Shown here in pieces: positions 1 through 6,916 of a DNA stretch of 64,000 nucleotides. Source of the DNA: an uncultured cyanobacterium. Lineage in GTDB: Bacteria > Cyanobacteriota > Cyanobacteriia > PCC-6307 > Cyanobiaceae. The position numbers and the translations under genes are program-made. Under the pieces are notes generated by a model that worked only from the letters and a program-made list of their open reading frames with translations, made no database searches and was not told the origin of the DNA. The stretch spans positions 62,001 to 126,000 of the forward strand of contig CAIQIA010000026.1 in assembly GCA_903871775.1 (NCBI GenBank), given 5' to 3'. The first letter of the stretch is position 1. Every line of letters starts with the position of its first letter.

Positions 1-352
1 AGAACGCCGCCACCGCTGGCGGCAGCAGCGGCCGGCAGCGGTCATACAGGGCCAGGCGATGGGCGGCCACACCACCGGCACGGATCGACCGGCAGGGCCA
101 GCCCCCCAGGAACTCAAGCAGCTGTCCATGCTCAAGCGCCAGGCAGGCGGCCAGCTTCAGCTGCAGCAGGGCGATCTGGGCCGGGTTGCGGTCGAGCACC
201 AGCAGCCGCGCCGGGCCTTCGGCCAGCAGGGCCAGGCTGTTGTCGCCCCCCGAACCGATCGACAGCACCGTGCGACCGGCCAGCGGCCCCAGGGCCTCCA
301 CCAGCAGGTCGGCGTCCTCCCAGCACTGGCCGTAGGTGAGCCGCTCAGCCAT
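1..352 (-). CDS. DUF3419 family protein (BtaA-like AdoMet transferase), 3' end beyond window
   Basis: The first 117 residues are visible; the C-terminus lies beyond the window edge. The N-terminus carries a Y-x-Q-C-W-E-D motif near residues 7-13 and a glycine-rich nucleotide-binding loop S-I-G-S-G-G-D-N near residues 32-39, followed by L-D-R-N-P-A-Q. This pattern is typical of DUF3419, whose best known member, BtaA, moves a 3-amino-3-carboxypropyl group from S-adenosylmethionine to diacylglycerol in betaine-lipid synthesis. The substrate here is unknown. The ATG overlaps the end of the upstream dikinase gene by 8 nt, so it is the last visible gene of the minus-strand unit that starts near 6359. 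No partner BtaB-type methyltransferase is seen in the window. Confidence 0.8.
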   Translation of the reverse strand, partial: MAERLTYGQCWEDADLLVEALGPLAGRTVLSIGSGGDNSLALLAEGPARLLVLDRNPAQIALLQLKLAACLALEHGQLLEFLGGWPCRSIRAGGVAAHRLALYDRCRPLLPPAVAAF

Positions 353-2864
353 CACCCCCGCGGGCCAGCAGCCGCACCCGGCCGCTGGCGCCATCGATCT
401 CGACCCGGTCGCCATCGGCCAGCCGACCGGCGATGCCCGCCAGTTCGGTGACCATCGGCAGCCCCACCTCCCGCGCAACGATCGCCACGTGCGACAGGGC
501 GCTGCCCCGTTCCACCAGCAGACCGGCGGCATGGGGGAACAGCAGCACCCAGCCCGGATCGGTGGCCTGGGCCACCAGGATCGGCCGCGCCCCCGGGCCC
601 GGCCGCCGCTGCTCGAGCCAGAGCAGCGGATCGCCCACCCGTTCGATCGCCGCCTGCACCCGTCCTGGCGAACAGCCCAGGCCCTGCCAGCCCTCAGGCC
701 CCGGATCCGCAACGGCGGCCTGGGGCAGGTCGAGGTGGGGCAGGCCCTCGGTCACGAACCGCCGCGGCAGGGGCGCCAGCGCCCGCTGCTGCAGCCATTG
801 GCGGCGGCGCAGGGCCACCAGGCCGCCCACGTCGGTGCAGCTGGCGGTGCCCTCCACCAGCCCCAGCAGCTCCTCCACCTCCAGAAACACGGCGTCGTCG
901 CCCCGGTCGAGCAGCCCCAGGTCGGCATAACGGCGGCCGAGGCTCAGCAGCAGCCGCCGGGCCTGGCCGAACACCCGCGTGCGTTCGAAGCGCAGGTTCT
1001 CGCGCTCGGCCAGCAACCGCCGCAGCCGCCGCCGCAGCCAGCCCAGGGGCAATCGCTGCCAGGGGGGACAGGGGCGGGGCAGGGTCGCCGGCGGCGGCGC
1101 ATCCGCAGGGGCCGGGGACCCGGCAGAGGCAGCGGCGGCGGCCAGGCTGCGCAGCAACGGCAGCGGGTCATCCGCCAGGGTGCGCGTCTCGAGCTTCAGC
1201 TCACCGAGGCAGCGATCGCCGAAGGCCTCGAGGTAGGCATCCAGCTCGGCCTGCAGCCACGGATGGTTGGCCACGGCCCGGGCGATGGCGTCGCCATGAC
1301 CAGCCGCCAGCACCGCCACCAGGGCCGGCTCCGGGGCCAGCCGGCGCCCCAGGGCGGCGATGCGCCGGTGCGGTTCGGCGCTGATCACCGCCCCCAGATC
1401 GCTGATCCACGCCTGCAGCACCCGGCCGTCGGGATCCAGGCGCCAGCGCTGCAGCAGCCCCCGCAGCACGCCGTAGACGACCATCGCGAAGAAGTCGTTG
1501 ATCAGCGGTGCATCCCAGTGGCTCAGCAGCTGCCCCTCCAGGCGGCGGTAGTGCTGCACCAGCTGCTGGGGATCGGCCTCCGGCAGGGCCGCCAGGGCCG
1601 CGGGGGGCAGCAGCACCCGGTCGAGCCGCCGGCGAAAGGCCCGACGGCGCCGCTCGAGGCCCACGGCATTGGCGACCATGGCCAGCAGCAACCGCACCAG
1701 CCGCAGCAGATCGGCCAGGGCCACCGTCGACGGCTCCAACCGCAACCGCTCCCGCTCGGCCGCCTCGAGCGGTTGCTGCACCCCCAGCATCTGCTCCAGA
1801 AACGGCGCATTGAGCCGATAGCCGGGCAACAGCGACAGCACCCGGTACCAGCTCTGCAGGTTGTAGTAGATGCGGCCGTTGTGGAAGCCGATCATCGTCG
1901 CCAGCACCCCGCGATGGCGCCGGATCAGCGCTGCCTCCACCCCCATGAAGCGGCAGAAGCCGGCATAGACCTCGGTGTAGGCCTTGCGGGCGAACGAGAA
2001 GGTGAGCGGTGTCGTGACGCCCGAATAGCTCTCGACGATGTTGCTGTTGTCCCAGAGACCGGCGCTGCCACCACCGGTCGACGCCGGCGCCAGGCCGGTG
2101 ATGGGCCGCACCTGCAGCAACCAGAGCCGCCCCTCGCCATCGAGGGCCCACTCCACATCCTGCGGAGCCCCCAGCCGCCGCTCCAGGTCGGCGAGCAGCC
2201 GCTGCAGACGCTGCAGCACAGCGGGCGACATCAGCGGGCGGCCGGGCTCGAGGGTGTGCTGCTCGAGCACACGGCCATCGCCGGCCAGCCGATAACGATC
2301 GCCGCTGCAGCGGCCCGCCAGCAGGTCGGCCGCCACACCGGCCACCGCCTGCACGAGGGTGACGCCCCGGAGACCGCTCACCGGATCCGCCCCGAAGGCC
2401 ACCCCCGCCACCGTCGCCGGCAGCATCGGCTGCAGCAGCAGGGCCGACCGACCGGCCCCCTCCCCCCCGGCCCCCAGCAGCTGCCGGTAGCGGGCCAGGG
2501 CCGGCCCCTCGGCCGCAGCCCACAACTCGGCCACCGTGGCCTCCAGGGCGGCCGTCGGCACCCCCAGCCGGGTGGTGTACTGCCCGGCGAAGCTGTGCAC
2601 CTGGCCGTCTTCGACGATGGCCGACGAGCGCACGGCCCAGCCCGCCGCCATCGCGGGCAGCCCCGCCAGGGCCGCCGCCGGCAACGACCAGCCGCCGGGA
2701 CCCTCAGGCGGCAGCAGCACCACCCCCGGCCAGACCGGATAGCCCAGGGCCGCCAGCCGCCGCAGCGCCCCCGCCTTGCCCCCGAAGCGCTGCAGCAGCG
2801 CCGCCGATGGCGGCTCGCGGCCCAGCAGCGGCAGCACCTCCAGCGGCGGGCGGGGGTCCCTCAT
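345..2864 (-). CDS. Dikinase with N-terminal ATP-binding and C-terminal phospho-histidine domains (rifampicin-phosphotransferase-like)
   Basis: This 839-residue protein begins with a PPDK/PEP-synthase ATP-binding domain: the G-G-K-A-x-x-L signature is near residues 28-34, V-R-S-S-A near 78-82, and F-A-G-Q-Y near 92-96. The phospho-histidine swivelling domain with S-x-x-L-S-H-V-A-I-V-A-R-E is at the very C-terminus, with the histidine near 792. True PEP synthases place this domain in the middle and end with a PEP-binding barrel, which is missing here. The order ATP domain, central helical domain, C-terminal histidine matches rifampicin phosphotransferase, which passes the beta-phosphate of ATP to a substrate held by the central domain. 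The substrate is unknown. The ATG overlaps the upstream prenyltransferase stop as ATGA. Annotation pipelines will often call this PEP synthase. Confidence 0.85.
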   Translation of the reverse strand: MRDPRPPLEVLPLLGREPPSAALLQRFGGKAGALRRLAALGYPVWPGVVLLPPEGPGGWSLPAAALAGLPAMAAGWAVRSSAIVEDGQVHSFAGQYTTRLGVPTAALEATVAELWAAAEGPALARYRQLLGAGGEGAGRSALLLQPMLPATVAGVAFGADPVSGLRGVTLVQAVAGVAADLLAGRCSGDRYRLAGDGRVLEQHTLEPGRPLMSPAVLQRLQRLLADLERRLGAPQDVEWALDGEGRLWLLQVRPITGLAPASTGGGSAGLWDNSNIVESYSGVTTPLTFSFARKAYTEVYAGFCRFMGVEAALIRRHRGVLATMIGFHNGRIYYNLQSWYRVLSLLPGYRLNAPFLEQMLGVQQPLEAAERERLRLEPSTVALADLLRLVRLLLAMVANAVGLERRRRAFRRRLDRVLLPPAALAALPEADPQQLVQHYRRLEGQLLSHWDAPLINDFFAMVVYGVLRGLLQRWRLDPDGRVLQAWISDLGAVISAEPHRRIAALGRRLAPEPALVAVLAAGHGDAIARAVANHPWLQAELDAYLEAFGDRCLGELKLETRTLADDPLPLLRSLAAAAASAGSPAPADAPPPATLPRPCPPWQRLPLGWLRRRLRRLLAERENLRFERTRVFGQARRLLLSLGRRYADLGLLDRGDDAVFLEVEELLGLVEGTASCTDVGGLVALRRRQWLQQRALAPLPRRFVTEGLPHLDLPQAAVADPGPEGWQGLGCSPGRVQAAIERVGDPLLWLEQRRPGPGARPILVAQATDPGWVLLFPHAAGLLVERGSALSHVAIVAREVGLPMVTELAGIAGRLADGDRVEIDGASGRVRLLARGGDG

Positions 2865-3718
2865 GGCGCCCAGCCCAGGGCCAGATACAGCACCACGATC
2901 CAGAGGCTGCTCGGGGTCGCCAGCGGCTGGGTTCCGCGCCCCGCCAGGGCCGCCGCCACGGTCAGCAGCAGCATCGGCGTGAGCAGCCACGGCAGCGACG
3001 GCTGCGGCACCACCACGGCCGCGATGGCCGCACCGGCCAGCGAGATCGCCAGGGCCAGCAGCCACACCGCCACCGCCCGCCGCCAGCCCCAGGCGGCGCT
3101 GTAGCTCTCGACGCCGACGGGGTCGGCCCCGGCCCGCCACGTCTTGCGTCCCACCTCAAAACCCAGGGAGGCGCCGAAGGTGCAGGCCAGAAACGGCAGC
3201 AGGCGCAGCAGCGGCTGGGGCAGGGGCAGCGCCACCGCCATCGCCAGCAGAGCCAGCAGCGGCACGATCAGCAGATGGCTGCAGGCATAGAGCCCCAGCC
3301 GCCGCCGTAGCCCCACGGGGCAGAAAAACTCGGCCGTCATCAGCAGAAACCAGCCCCACACGGCCGCCAGCAGCGGCAGGGCCGCCGGCCGCGCGAGCAG
3401 CACCACCGCCCACTGCAGGGCCGCCGCCACGGCCGCGAGGGCGGCGAGGTCAGCCAGGCTCAGCAGGCCCCGGGGCAGGGGCCGCTGGGGCCGCCAGCGA
3501 CGGTCGGCCTCGAGGTCCTTGACGTCGTCGGCGCAGCGCATCAGCAGAAACTGCAGCAGCACCACCACCGCGGCCGTGACCATCGCGCCGGGGGCCGCCG
3601 GGCGATCCGCCAGCCGAGCGGCATGGGCCACCGCGGCACCCGCGAAGACCAGGATCAGCGGGCCATGGCGCTGCAACGGAAACCGCTCGGCCAGGTACTG
3701 CCCATGGCGGTTCAGCAC
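2861..3718 (-). CDS. UbiA-family prenyltransferase, integral membrane
   Basis: This 285-residue polytopic membrane protein has about eight hydrophobic segments. The first aspartate-rich motif D-D-V-K-D-L-E-A-D is at residues 64-72 and is followed by R-P-Q-R-P-L-P-R-G, the usual Mg-diphosphate-binding loop of UbiA enzymes. The second Asp-rich motif is not visible; its place is taken by F-E-V-G-R-K-T near 187-193 and V-E-S-Y-S near 203-207, suggesting a distinct UbiA subfamily. UbiA enzymes join a prenyl diphosphate to an acceptor at the membrane; here neither is known. The start is a GTG that overlaps the upstream gene by 7 nt, and the stop overlaps the dikinase start as ATGA, so translation is probably coupled on both sides. 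Confidence 0.85.
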   Translation of the reverse strand: MLNRHGQYLAERFPLQRHGPLILVFAGAAVAHAARLADRPAAPGAMVTAAVVVLLQFLLMRCADDVKDLEADRRWRPQRPLPRGLLSLADLAALAAVAAALQWAVVLLARPAALPLLAAVWGWFLLMTAEFFCPVGLRRRLGLYACSHLLIVPLLALLAMAVALPLPQPLLRLLPFLACTFGASLGFEVGRKTWRAGADPVGVESYSAAWGWRRAVAVWLLALAISLAGAAIAAVVVPQPSLPWLLTPMLLLTVAAALAGRGTQPLATPSSLWIVVLYLALGWAP

Positions 3719-4158
3719 GGAGCGTCTCCCCGGCCGGCCGCCAGGGCGGCCTCCACCTCGGCGGCGCTCCAGCCCCCCCGCAGCAGATCGGCGCGGATGT
3801 GGTCGTCATCACCGCCCGCCTGGCGCCGACGCGCGACGTAGGCCTTGATCACCGGGCCGGATGTCACCTGACTGAAGCCATGGCGGGAGGCCCCGGGCCA
3901 GGACCCGCCCAGCAGGCGGATCACCAGACCCACCAGCAGCACGGTCACGGCCCCCAGGATCCAGGCCAGCAGCCCCCAGAAAACGGCTCCCACCCCAAGG
4001 GTGCAGACGATCGACATGGTCAGCGCGGCGCCGGCGTTGTAGAGCGACCCCGTCAGCACCGTCAGCCACACCAGCAGCAACGGCGCCCCCACGAGCACAT
4101 CCCGCAGCAGCGGTGAACCAGACATGCGGCGGGAAGGGTCAACCATGCGGAACGACAT
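3712..4158 (-). CDS. Small membrane protein of unknown function in the UbiA/radical SAM unit
   Basis: This 148-residue protein is not recognised as a named family. Two long hydrophobic segments lie near residues 22-50 and 56-85, followed by a basic stretch and a soluble tail ending with a helical motif (I-R-A-D-L-L-R-G-G-W-S, then A-E-V-E-A-A-L) near 121-140. That tail resembles the short 'I..L...GW....V..A' repeats often seen next to membrane segments, whose role is unclear. It sits 4 nt downstream of the duplicated membrane protein and overlaps the prenyltransferase start by 7 nt, so it is almost certainly co-translated with them. It may be an accessory or scaffold subunit of the membrane enzymes; this is inference. 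Confidence 0.7.
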   Translation of the reverse strand: MSFRMVDPSRRMSGSPLLRDVLVGAPLLLVWLTVLTGSLYNAGAALTMSIVCTLGVGAVFWGLLAWILGAVTVLLVGLVIRLLGGSWPGASRHGFSQVTSGPVIKAYVARRRQAGGDDDHIRADLLRGGWSAAEVEAALAAGRGDAPC

Positions 4159-4162
4159 CGAA

Positions 4163-5176
4163 TCAGAGGCGGTTGTCGAGGGCCAGGTCCCAGTAGCGGA
4201 TGAAGCCGAACATCAGCGCCATGTAGCAGGGAATGGCGAAGGCGATCTCGATCGGCGCCCCCAGCACCGGGAGGGTGAAGCCGCTGAAGTTGGCGATGGC
4301 ACTGGGCCCGTAGACGCGGATGCCGGCCGCCAGCAGGCCGTATTCGATCGGCAGGGCCACAGCGGTGGCGATGGCCACGGCCAGCACAAAGCGCAGGGCC
4401 ACCGACAGGTGCAGGCCGATGCGCGTCACCACCGCCGCCGTGATCGCGATGACCAGCACCCACAGGCCGCTCATCAGCAGCGAGACATCGCGATGCAGGT
4501 AAGACCAGGCCGGCAGGCCACGGTTCGACACCATCGGCTCGACCATCAGCTCGAACAGCAGCACCGCCGCCAGGGTCAGCAGCAGCCCCCGCCCCCAGCG
4601 GATCCGCCGCATCGGGATCAGCAGCGCATCGTCGATCACCAGGCACCAGTAGCGGTAGAACCCCAGCACCAGGGCGGTGAACACCGGCACGTAATACAGA
4701 ACCGCCAGCGGCACCCCGTCGATCCAGCCACCGACGGCGGCCTCGTGCACCTCAGGGGCATAGCTGCGGATGCCCAGCCGCACCACCAGCCATTCCAGCG
4801 GCACCACCAGCACGGTGAGCACCACCACGTTGAGCAGACCACGGCGCCACGCCCGCCAGTGGGGCAGCAGCCGGTCGCCGAGTTCCACCACCAGCAGAAA
4901 CAGCACCGACCAGCCCAGCGTCAGCACCCAGCTCACATCGCGGTAGAGGTAGGCCCAGCGCCCCAGATGGGCGTTGTGCCACATGGGCGCCGTGAACATC
5001 TCGAAGATCAGCACCCCCAGGGCCATCACACCGAAGCGCTGGCCCAGGCGTTCCACCCGCCGCGACAGCAGGGCCAGGCCGGCGGCACTGCCGGCGAGCA
5101 CCCCCAGCTGAAACAGCACCCCCGCCAGGGTGGGGGTGCGATCGACGGCACAGGTGCTGAGGGATGACAGGTCCAT
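4163..5176 (-). CDS. Polytopic membrane protein built from two ~150-residue repeats, function unknown
   Basis: The 337-residue protein has about ten hydrophobic segments and a clear internal duplication. Residues 56-89 match 206-239 (shared F-E-x-x-x-x-P-M, L-x-x-W-x-Y-L-x-R-D-V-S). Residues 125-142 match 275-292 (P-[LI]-E-[WY], G-I-R-x-Y-x-P). Residues 155-179 match 307-331 (G-F-x-R-Y-W-x-L). The offset is 150-152 throughout. Conserved Glu, Arg, Asp and Tyr facing similar positions in both halves look like an active or binding site rather than a plain channel. I do not recognise the family; membrane cyclases such as heterodimeric lycopene cyclases are only a loose comparison. It lies 4 nt from both its neighbours in the unit. 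Confidence 0.75.
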   Translation of the reverse strand: MDLSSLSTCAVDRTPTLAGVLFQLGVLAGSAAGLALLSRRVERLGQRFGVMALGVLIFEMFTAPMWHNAHLGRWAYLYRDVSWVLTLGWSVLFLLVVELGDRLLPHWRAWRRGLLNVVVLTVLVVPLEWLVVRLGIRSYAPEVHEAAVGGWIDGVPLAVLYYVPVFTALVLGFYRYWCLVIDDALLIPMRRIRWGRGLLLTLAAVLLFELMVEPMVSNRGLPAWSYLHRDVSLLMSGLWVLVIAITAAVVTRIGLHLSVALRFVLAVAIATAVALPIEYGLLAAGIRVYGPSAIANFSGFTLPVLGAPIEIAFAIPCYMALMFGFIRYWDLALDNRL

Positions 5177-5180
5177 CGGC

Positions 5181-6359
5181 TCAGACCGAAAGCGGCGGCA
5201 CCGGCCGCGACCGCCCCGGCTGCACGCCGGGACGCTGCAGGCTGCCCGAATCCTTCACCTTGCAGCCCCCCCACTTGGCCTGGGCGAAATCGGGATCACG
5301 GCTCAGCCGTTCCCACACCTGCCACAGGGGCTGCTCGAGCACATTGCCGAAGATGGCGTGGTTGAAATCGCACGACATCACATCGCCATAGGGAGACAGG
5401 TAGAAGTAACTGGTGCCGCAGGCGCAGCCGACGCTGCGATGGCTGGTGATGTACGCCGAGAACACCACCCCGGGATAGCGGGGATCGGCATTCCAGCGGT
5501 CGGCCGAGCGCACCATCGCCTCGACCCAGTCGCCCTGGTCGACCAGGTCATCGCGATGCTGCAGCCGGCCGCTGGGGAGGGCATCGAACACCAGCAGCTC
5601 ATGGGCACCCACCCGACGGGCCAGCTCGACCCGCCGCGCCAGCTCGCCGGCGGCCCAGTCTTCAGGGGTGAGGGTGGTCGAGATGCCCACCGACAGGCCC
5701 TCCCGGCGGGCAGCCTGCAGCCCCTCCAGGGCCCGGTCGAACAACCCTGGAGTGCCGCGGCGCTGGTCATGGCTGCTGGCATCGGCCCCATCGAGGCTCA
5801 CGTAGACGCTGTCGAGGCCGGCCCGCCGCAGCTCGCGGGCCCGCGCGGCCAGATGCCAGCCGTTGGTGAACAGCAGCACGGTCGACAGCGACTTGTCGAC
5901 GGCCGCGATCACCGCGGCCAGATCTGGCCGCAGCAGCGGTTCACCCCCGACCAGGTTGATGATCGACACCCCCAGCTGCTGGGCCTCGCCGATCACCTGC
6001 CGCAGTTGTTCCAGGCTCAGCAACGGCCGCCCCGGCTCTTCGACGGCGTCATAGAAGCTGCAGTGGCCGCAGCGGGCATTGCAGCCGTCCGTGACGGCGA
6101 TGCTCATCAGATTGGGCAGGTTGCGGTTCTGAATGCCGCGGTACAGGGTGCGGGCGATGAAATGGGCGGCGGGGCCGCTGAACAGGGCCGGTGTCGACAG
6201 CGAATAGACCGGATGACCATCACGAACATGGATGATCTTGTTGTGGTTCAGATAGATCCGGTACAGCACATCAACGAAGGTGCAGCTGCTGTCAAGGCCG
6301 CGCCGCAGCAGGAACCAGCGCAACCGCAGGGCCTGGGGCAGGGACCAAGCACGTCTCAT
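5181..6359 (-). CDS. Radical SAM protein with SPASM-like C-terminal region
   Basis: This 392-residue protein carries the radical SAM Cys motif C-N-A-R-C-G-H-C, with cysteines at 93, 97 and 100, then a V-G-G-E-P-L segment and the S-L-D-G-A strand typical of the partial TIM barrel. The C-terminal part has further cysteines (C-A-C-G-T, then S-C-D-F-N and G-G-C-K) separated by Y-L-S-P-Y-G-D, as in SPASM domains that bind extra Fe-S clusters. An unusual N-terminal region of about 85 residues precedes the barrel. It is the first gene of the six-gene unit, 96 nt after the TspO gene. The substrate could be a peptide, a lipid or a small molecule; the membrane-rich context favours a lipid, but this is not shown. 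Confidence 0.85.
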   Translation of the reverse strand: MRRAWSLPQALRLRWFLLRRGLDSSCTFVDVLYRIYLNHNKIIHVRDGHPVYSLSTPALFSGPAAHFIARTLYRGIQNRNLPNLMSIAVTDGCNARCGHCSFYDAVEEPGRPLLSLEQLRQVIGEAQQLGVSIINLVGGEPLLRPDLAAVIAAVDKSLSTVLLFTNGWHLAARARELRRAGLDSVYVSLDGADASSHDQRRGTPGLFDRALEGLQAARREGLSVGISTTLTPEDWAAGELARRVELARRVGAHELLVFDALPSGRLQHRDDLVDQGDWVEAMVRSADRWNADPRYPGVVFSAYITSHRSVGCACGTSYFYLSPYGDVMSCDFNHAIFGNVLEQPLWQVWERLSRDPDFAQAKWGGCKVKDSGSLQRPGVQPGRSRPVPPLSV

Positions 6360-6454
6360 GTGAGAACCGTATTCAGCGCCCGGAGCAGGCCCCCGTTCCG
6401 GGGATTGTCTTCAGCTTCCCCTGGGTGACCCGGCACCTCCGTGGGGCCAGACCC

Positions 6455-6916
6455 TCAGCGGTTGAGCCGCTGCATCTGCCAGGTCACCAGGGTGCCCACC
6501 GGGCTCCAGAGCAGATAGGGCACCAGCAACAGGGCCGCCAGGGGCACCCGCGCCGCCACCACCACCGCCAGGGCCACCCCCCACAGCCAGCCCGCCAGGC
6601 CGATGCCGGTGCCGCTGGCCAGGCGGCGGGTCCGGCAGATGAGCAGCGTGTAGCTCTGCACGAGCAGCAGCAGCCCCAGAAAGCCCACCATCAGCCCCCA
6701 GCTGGCCGTGGCCGTCCAGGTCAGCAGGGCGGCGGCGTAGAAGCACAGGTAGATGAACAGCCAGATCAGCGGGATCAGCTGCTCGAAGGTGAGCCAGTCG
6801 GGCCGGCGCAACCGCAGAAACCAGGCGAACTCCTCGGCCGAGGGCCGCAGCAGCCAGGCCACGGCCAGCAGCACCAGCAGAATCACCAGGGCGGCCACCA
6901 CGGCTGTTCTCCCCAC
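6455..6916 (-). CDS. tspO: TspO/MBR family protein (tryptophan-rich sensory protein)
   Basis: The 153-residue protein has five predicted membrane segments and the TspO/MBR signature, seen as W-L-L-R-P near residues 21-25, then R-R-P-D-W-L-T-F-E and L-I-P-L-I-W-L-F-I-Y. TspO proteins bind tetrapyrroles and sterols and modulate their breakdown or transport. Length fits the family (about 155-165). The start is a GTG. It is on the same strand as the radical SAM unit, 96 nt upstream of it, so it could be the leader gene of that transcript or a separate unit. It is divergent from the DUF427 gene with only 58 nt between. Confidence 0.85.
   Translation of the reverse strand: MGRTAVVAALVILLVLLAVAWLLRPSAEEFAWFLRLRRPDWLTFEQLIPLIWLFIYLCFYAAALLTWTATASWGLMVGFLGLLLLVQSYTLLICRTRRLASGTGIGLAGWLWGVALAVVVAARVPLAALLLVPYLLWSPVGTLVTWQMQRLNR

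Follow-up and report, generated by a model that had tools for sequence, protein, structure and literature searches.

What might be made by a gene set that places a radical SAM enzyme, a UbiA-type protein, a phospho-histidine dikinase and a DUF3419 transferase beside membrane proteins of no known family? Such a set lies at the left edge of the window analyzed here, a 64,000-nt stretch (G000:C26:62001–126000) of a 2.57 Mb cyanobacterial genome. An earlier note had read it as one transcript for an unusual prenylated or lipid-linked compound that fits no nameable pathway. Our analysis leads us to view the unit as a candidate operon whose product would be a modified membrane lipid not described so far, and as the cyanobacterial 'type II' of a gene cluster found across phyla, a reading to which we assign a probability of roughly 40%. 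Its lipid theme is well supported, given the UbiA, BtaA-family, lipid-kinase-like and MMPL partners described below; the exact chemistry is what we infer.

Organization of the six-gene unit

The ORF list places six minus-strand genes, termed A to F, from position 6359 to beyond the left edge of the window:

A: 6359–5181, minus strand, 392 aa, radical SAM/SPASM enzyme
B: 5176–4163, minus strand, 337 aa, membrane protein with eight transmembrane segments and no known family
C: 4158–3712, minus strand, 148 aa, small transmembrane protein
D: 3718–2861, minus strand, 285 aa, predicted divergent UbiA-fold prenyltransferase
E: 2864–345, minus strand, 839 aa, rifampin-phosphotransferase-type dikinase
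F, 5′ part: 352–1 in the window, minus strand, DUF3419 (BtaA-family) domain followed by a GNAT domain

The reading frame of F starts at position 352 (ATGGCTGAG) and exits the window at its left edge. Completed from the left flank (L009:10352–8337), F encodes 671 aa and has its far end at G000:C26:60337 (corresponding to L009:8337). Adjacent genes are either separated by 4 nt (A/B and B/C) or overlap by 7 nt (C/D), 4 nt (D/E, as ATGA) and 8 nt (E/F). The coordinates thus agree with the packing described previously (–8 to +4 nt), and junctions of this kind predict that the six genes form a single operon, in keeping with the proposed common transcript. The nearest named relatives of the unit's genes belong to Synechococcus strains, which places the source among cyanobacteria of this type.

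A gene for a TspO/MBR protein (6455–6916) is encoded on the same strand as A and ends 95 nt upstream of it; the interval contains a terminator-like hairpin on the plus strand (6379–6402). Neither TspO nor the DUF985 gene upstream of it found a match in the 80 related loci searched with them.

Enzymes encoded by D, E and F

E contains a PPDK_N domain (1.9e-26) and, at its C-terminus, a PEP-utilizers domain (2.6e-19), resulting in an architecture of ATP-grasp, central acceptor and C-terminal phospho-His domains. Its nearest solved chains are those of rifampin phosphotransferase (RPH; 5hv1–5hv3/5fbs, with 5hv2 at 4.5e-27). K30, R79 and R621-E622 were found in all 73 homologues and H792 in 72 of 73, and these residues correspond to K22, R117, R666-E667 and H825 of RPH-Lm, where R79, the R-E pair and the histidine were equated by alignment and K30 by the position of the GGK motif. 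Mutation of these RPH residues abolishes resistance (PMC4844700). E hence shares with Listeria RPH both the three-part architecture and the essential residues, but its central acceptor domain has strongly diverged, and while the Listeria enzyme is a stand-alone resistance gene, E adjoins D and F. The rifampin phosphotransferase equivalog model NF041857 scored E at 143.6 bits, against a cut-off of 999. E is predicted to work like an RPH, though we do not call it one. Assignment as a PEP synthase was ruled out by the C-terminal His domain and by the nearest solved chains being those of RPH.

For D, assignment to the UbiA family stands on fold and falls short on profile score. The Pfam model (PF01040) reached 18.3 bits, below its gathering score of 34.2, whereas the AF2 model of D resembled ApUbiA (4od4; E 1.4e-4, probability 1.00, TM 0.70) and digeranylgeranylglyceryl phosphate synthase (7bpu; TM 0.61), and a profile of D retrieved solved UbiA-family chains at 1.3e-5. 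As in other members of the superfamily, including chlorophyll synthase, the first aspartate motif is present (D64xxxD68xxxD72) and was kept in 66/66 homologues. In contrast to these members, the second aspartate motif is replaced by E188xxR191K192...E/D199, with the motif residues overall invariant in 65–66 of the 66 homologues. As this second motif is altered, the donor or acceptor of D may differ from those of known UbiA enzymes. On the strength of its structural model, D is a UbiA-fold protein assigned to no named UbiA subfamily. Neither the viral contigs scanned nor the plasmids searched with D contained a match.

F carries an essentially full-length DUF3419 domain (1.4e-46, profile positions 9–382 of 385), as expected of the DUF3419 transferase proposed before. 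The earlier description had missed that the same protein continues into a C-terminal GNAT domain (Acetyltransf_1, 9.6e-6). In most other genomes GNAT is a separate downstream gene, and its fusion to F in the window and in two further loci (L017 and L118) suggests that the DUF3419 and GNAT steps are linked. BtaA, which shares the full DUF3419 domain, makes diacylglycerol-O-homoserine from diacylglycerol, to which it transfers the aminocarboxypropyl group of S-adenosylmethionine (PMC10685587). Whereas DGTS synthesis pairs BtaA with BtaB (or joins both in Bta1), here a fused or adjacent GNAT takes this place, with a UbiA-fold protein and a dikinase alongside. No methyltransferase family that could stand for a BtaB-type N-methyltransferase recurs in the cluster neighborhoods. 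A PDB sequence search with F returned no match.

A radical SAM enzyme tied to a new membrane protein family

A matched the Pfam models Radical_SAM (1.3e-25) and SPASM (7e-6) above cut-off. Its CX3CX2C core (C93, C97, C100) is invariant across 13 genomes, as are four C-terminal cysteines (C312, C314, C330 and C366). The radical SAM core and Cys-rich C-terminus are common to AhbD-, NirJ- and MoaA-like enzymes, but A scored far below the AhbD, NirJ2 and MoaA equivalog cut-offs and forms a clade tied to B. Of the NCBIfam equivalogs none was passed, the best being AhbD (125.7 vs. 500 bits), and the best-scoring models overall were haem and cofactor enzymes, all below cut-off.

B consists of two tandem four-helix units of ~140 aa, the halves being 31% identical and aligned at 99.8% probability, and it carries conserved acidic residues. 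Its AF2 model (pLDDT 85, pTM 0.86) found nothing below E 0.24 among PDB folds and no significant match in a viral fold search; likewise, comparison of the 13 B proteins with Pfam and NCBIfam gave no E-value under 0.08. B thus probably belongs to a membrane protein family that is new, built of tandem four-helix units and matching no known family or solved fold. A weak resemblance of two of the 13 B proteins to the CBO0543 family (E 0.095) was also noted, and this family could be a single-unit relative.

C, a fast-evolving protein with a soluble helical segment at its C-terminus, had no significant match in the family search. Its position is kept in nearly all A-B loci, at an identity of just 24–43%. 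For neither B nor C were relatives of known function found.

Conservation of the unit in cyanobacteria

A occurs together with B in 13 genomes; D comes next in 12 of these, and the contig of the remaining one (L018) ends after B. Named carriers of A-B followed by D comprise Calothrix PCC 7716, Calothrix NIES-4105, Dulcicalothrix desertica PCC 7102, Microseira wollei, Scytonematopsis contorta and Synechococcus CS-1328. In several relatives the complete order A-B-C-D-E-F is kept, down to 45% identity in B. The distribution is sparse: B was present in 5/200 genomes of the order and in 2/292 of the phylum sample, and A in 2/386 phylum genomes, both of which also have B and D-E-F. Within the family, A and B are much better conserved (75–83% and 67–73% identity, respectively) than C to F (e.g. 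42–50% for D).

The earlier note had named scattered homologues lacking a common neighborhood as an outcome that would speak against its reading. This outcome was not observed, as the six-gene order recurs in cyanobacteria and D-E-F in tens of other genomes.

A D-E-F cluster shared across phyla

A scan with D of 84,980 species genomes yielded 264 relatives. The best 80 of these 264 were read, and in nearly all of their sufficiently long loci D was followed by E and then F. Unsupervised grouping of neighbors over 98 loci recovered E (89), D (83), F (78) and GNAT (59), and in addition HMG-CoA reductase (54), a protein resembling phytol/dolichol kinases (52) and an AMP ligase (50). These counts are rough, as a few genomes were entered twice and many contigs are cut. 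The resulting order, HMG-CoA reductase-D-E-F-kinase-GNAT-AMP ligase, lies nearly always on one strand and was seen in Verrucomicrobia, Planctomycetes, Proteobacteria, Acidobacteria, Nitrospirae, Chloroflexi and others. One genome titled Bacillales (L067) has the full cluster and may be a mislabeled metagenome bin or a case of transfer. Examples of the additional genes are:

L096:8700–9992, HMG-CoA reductase
L084:8682–9986, HMG-CoA reductase
L084:14662–16035, kinase-like membrane protein (the proteins of this type being ~440–460 aa long)
L108:14389–15708, kinase-like membrane protein

The reductase has a true HMG-CoA_red domain (1.5e-109), with the catalytic residues of the family conserved. 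HMG-CoA synthase was found in only one of 14 genomes tested, two of the 14 being A-B genomes without reductase, and the reductase may therefore not use HMG-CoA from that enzyme. In the kinase-like protein, motifs resembling those of phytol/dolichol kinases are confined to the first ~220 residues, and the other half has no assigned family; no Pfam model matches the protein, nor does NCBIfam provide a meaningful match. From these motifs, and from its resemblance to a cyanobacterial protein of 239 aa that we take to be phytol-kinase-like, it is probably a lipid kinase-like enzyme. The AMP ligase is OleC-like, being nearest to a fatty acid CoA ligase family and to olefin beta-lactone synthetases. 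In two proteobacterial loci (L105 and L107), MMPL/sterol-sensing exporters are encoded between E and F.

D, E and F show strongly correlated pairwise distances (r 0.81–0.90, a level reached by 0/200 permutations), indicating that the cluster is inherited as a unit, and the mixing of phyla in the E tree points to horizontal transfer. At the level of sequence, D-E-F-GNAT is thus shown to be a conserved core, inherited together and with intact catalytic residues.

Exchange of the entry genes in cyanobacteria

The window unit and the cross-phylum cluster have in common the D-E-F-GNAT core, in the same order and on the same strand. They differ in that the window unit contains A-B-C but no reductase, cluster-type kinase or ligase; it is the absence of reductase and cluster-type kinase that led us to call the unit a variant of the cluster. 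More generally, HMG-CoA reductase was found in 0/10 A-B genomes and in 3/3 other cyanobacterial D-E-F genomes, even when far from D, and the phylum sample returned the same three cyanobacteria. The cluster-type kinase, too, was restricted to those cyanobacterial D-E-F genomes that lack A-B. The source genome itself has no reductase, and the nearest it comes to the kinase is a short kinase-like protein with 36% identity across ~200 aa. The small Synechococcus-type genomes lack the AMP ligase, which most larger ones have.

A-B-C is thus a cyanobacterial module standing in place of HMG-CoA reductase and kinase. Both cyanobacterial types are neighbors in the E tree and one switch suffices to explain them; since the exchange is a single evolutionary event, the reductase and kinase counts are not independent trials. 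Moreover, a family within the phylum whose genomes are low in GC and ~2 Mb in size (f31; L050 and L053–L056) carries D-E-F-kinase-GNAT-ligase with neither reductase nor A-B-C, and neither entry module is therefore universal. The replacement may also mean that two different products are made, rather than one product by two routes. The earlier note, correct in that the genes fit no known pathway, had missed both the cross-phylum D-E-F core and this exchange of modules.

Proposed pathway and competing explanations

In the pathway that we propose, whose sequence of steps is a guess, A-B-C would make or modify a membrane-bound acceptor, A contributing radical chemistry and B acting as the membrane partner that holds the substrate. 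At this stage, other bacteria would use a reduction of the HMG-CoA reductase type, yielding an alcohol, before the lipid kinase acts. D would prenylate the acceptor from a prenyl diphosphate, or take a polyprenyl phosphate as acceptor, and E would phosphorylate the intermediate at a hydroxyl, passing on the beta-phosphate of ATP via His792. F could then, through its DUF3419 domain, place the 3-amino-3-carboxypropyl group of S-adenosylmethionine on a hydroxyl; the resulting homoserine-ether head would parallel the one that BtaA builds on diacylglycerol. GNAT might acylate the new amino group, with the acyl donor supplied by the AMP ligase where that gene exists. The end result would be a prenylated aminolipid, perhaps bound for the outer membrane. 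The prenyl and lipid theme of the earlier note is retained, and that the product itself is prenylated or lipid-linked is our conjecture. A broader proposal is that D-E-F-GNAT makes an undescribed class of bacterial lipids, prenylated, phosphorylated and homoserine-headed, in many phyla, and that in cyanobacteria the reductase-plus-kinase entry gave way to a radical SAM enzyme working with a new tandem four-helix family; this we put forward tentatively, considering it somewhat doubtful in its entirety.

The same genes could be read differently. A-B-C and D-E-F-GNAT might be two pathways on one transcript, co-regulated and with separate products, of which the latter would be the aminolipid. The far better conservation of A and B than of C to F, as if constrained differently, would suit this arrangement, but A-type proteins were found only with B and D-E-F, and A-B-C sits where the absent reductase and kinase genes would be, which makes such a division unlikely. 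Alternatively, the product might be a specialized soluble metabolite, with E serving as a PigC/RedH-like ATP-dependent ligase that joins prenylated and aminocarboxypropyl intermediates. The RedH (2.5e-56) and PigC (7.1e-46) models indeed match E and share its architecture, and the patchy spread of the unit, with B so rare even within the order, is typical of secondary metabolism. Yet E keeps the R-E pair and the histidine needed in RPH for phosphoryl transfer to a hydroxyl, and it is accompanied by membrane proteins, by sterol-sensing MMPL exporters and by a protein resembling lipid kinases, so that we regard a soluble product as rather improbable.

UbiA is also the family of the C50 elongases. 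A carotenoid-like pathway modeled on C50 carotenoid operons, with D in the role of lycopene elongase and B in that of a cyclase made of tandem four-helix units, could accommodate the duplicated four-helix unit of B with its conserved acidic residues. It would leave DUF3419, dikinase and GNAT without a role, however; in addition, 0/13 B proteins match lycopene cyclase or any other known model, and no carotenoid gene family recurs in the neighborhoods, all of which renders this assignment highly implausible. We give equally little credence to maturation of a ribosomal peptide by the SPASM enzyme A and accessory membrane proteins. Although many SPASM proteins mature peptides and A scores against several such models, its best models are the sub-threshold haem and cofactor enzymes, no precursor gene would fit into the tight junctions within the unit, and among ORFs of at least 90 aa no further conserved one recurs beside it.

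Relation to described systems and outlook

Returning to the membrane lipid as the preferred reading, we found no description of this gene combination in the open-access papers searched; the earlier statement that no pathway matches is in agreement with this. By title and abstract, none of the open-access DUF3419 papers found is about this cluster, and the passages available from the Lipocone paper (PMC12419801), on UbiA and HMG-CoA reductase neighborhoods, describe other neighborhoods. What appears new is the B family and the variant arrangement; a lipid or isoprenoid operon built from known enzyme classes is the known part.

The cluster is conserved, widely spread and catalytically intact in its predicted residues, and has no assigned product. 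If a lipid is made, it would represent an overlooked class in the membranes of Verrucomicrobia, Planctomycetes, roseobacters, Melainabacteria and cyanobacteria. That a radical SAM enzyme and a new family of membrane proteins stand in for reductase and kinase also offers a direct handle on the role of the reductase in bacteria in which HMG-CoA synthase was not found (13/14 tested). As cultured carriers exist (Calothrix PCC 7716, Dulcicalothrix PCC 7102 and Synechococcus CS-1328, as well as Ruegeria, Methylomonas and Haloferula), the question can be tested now.
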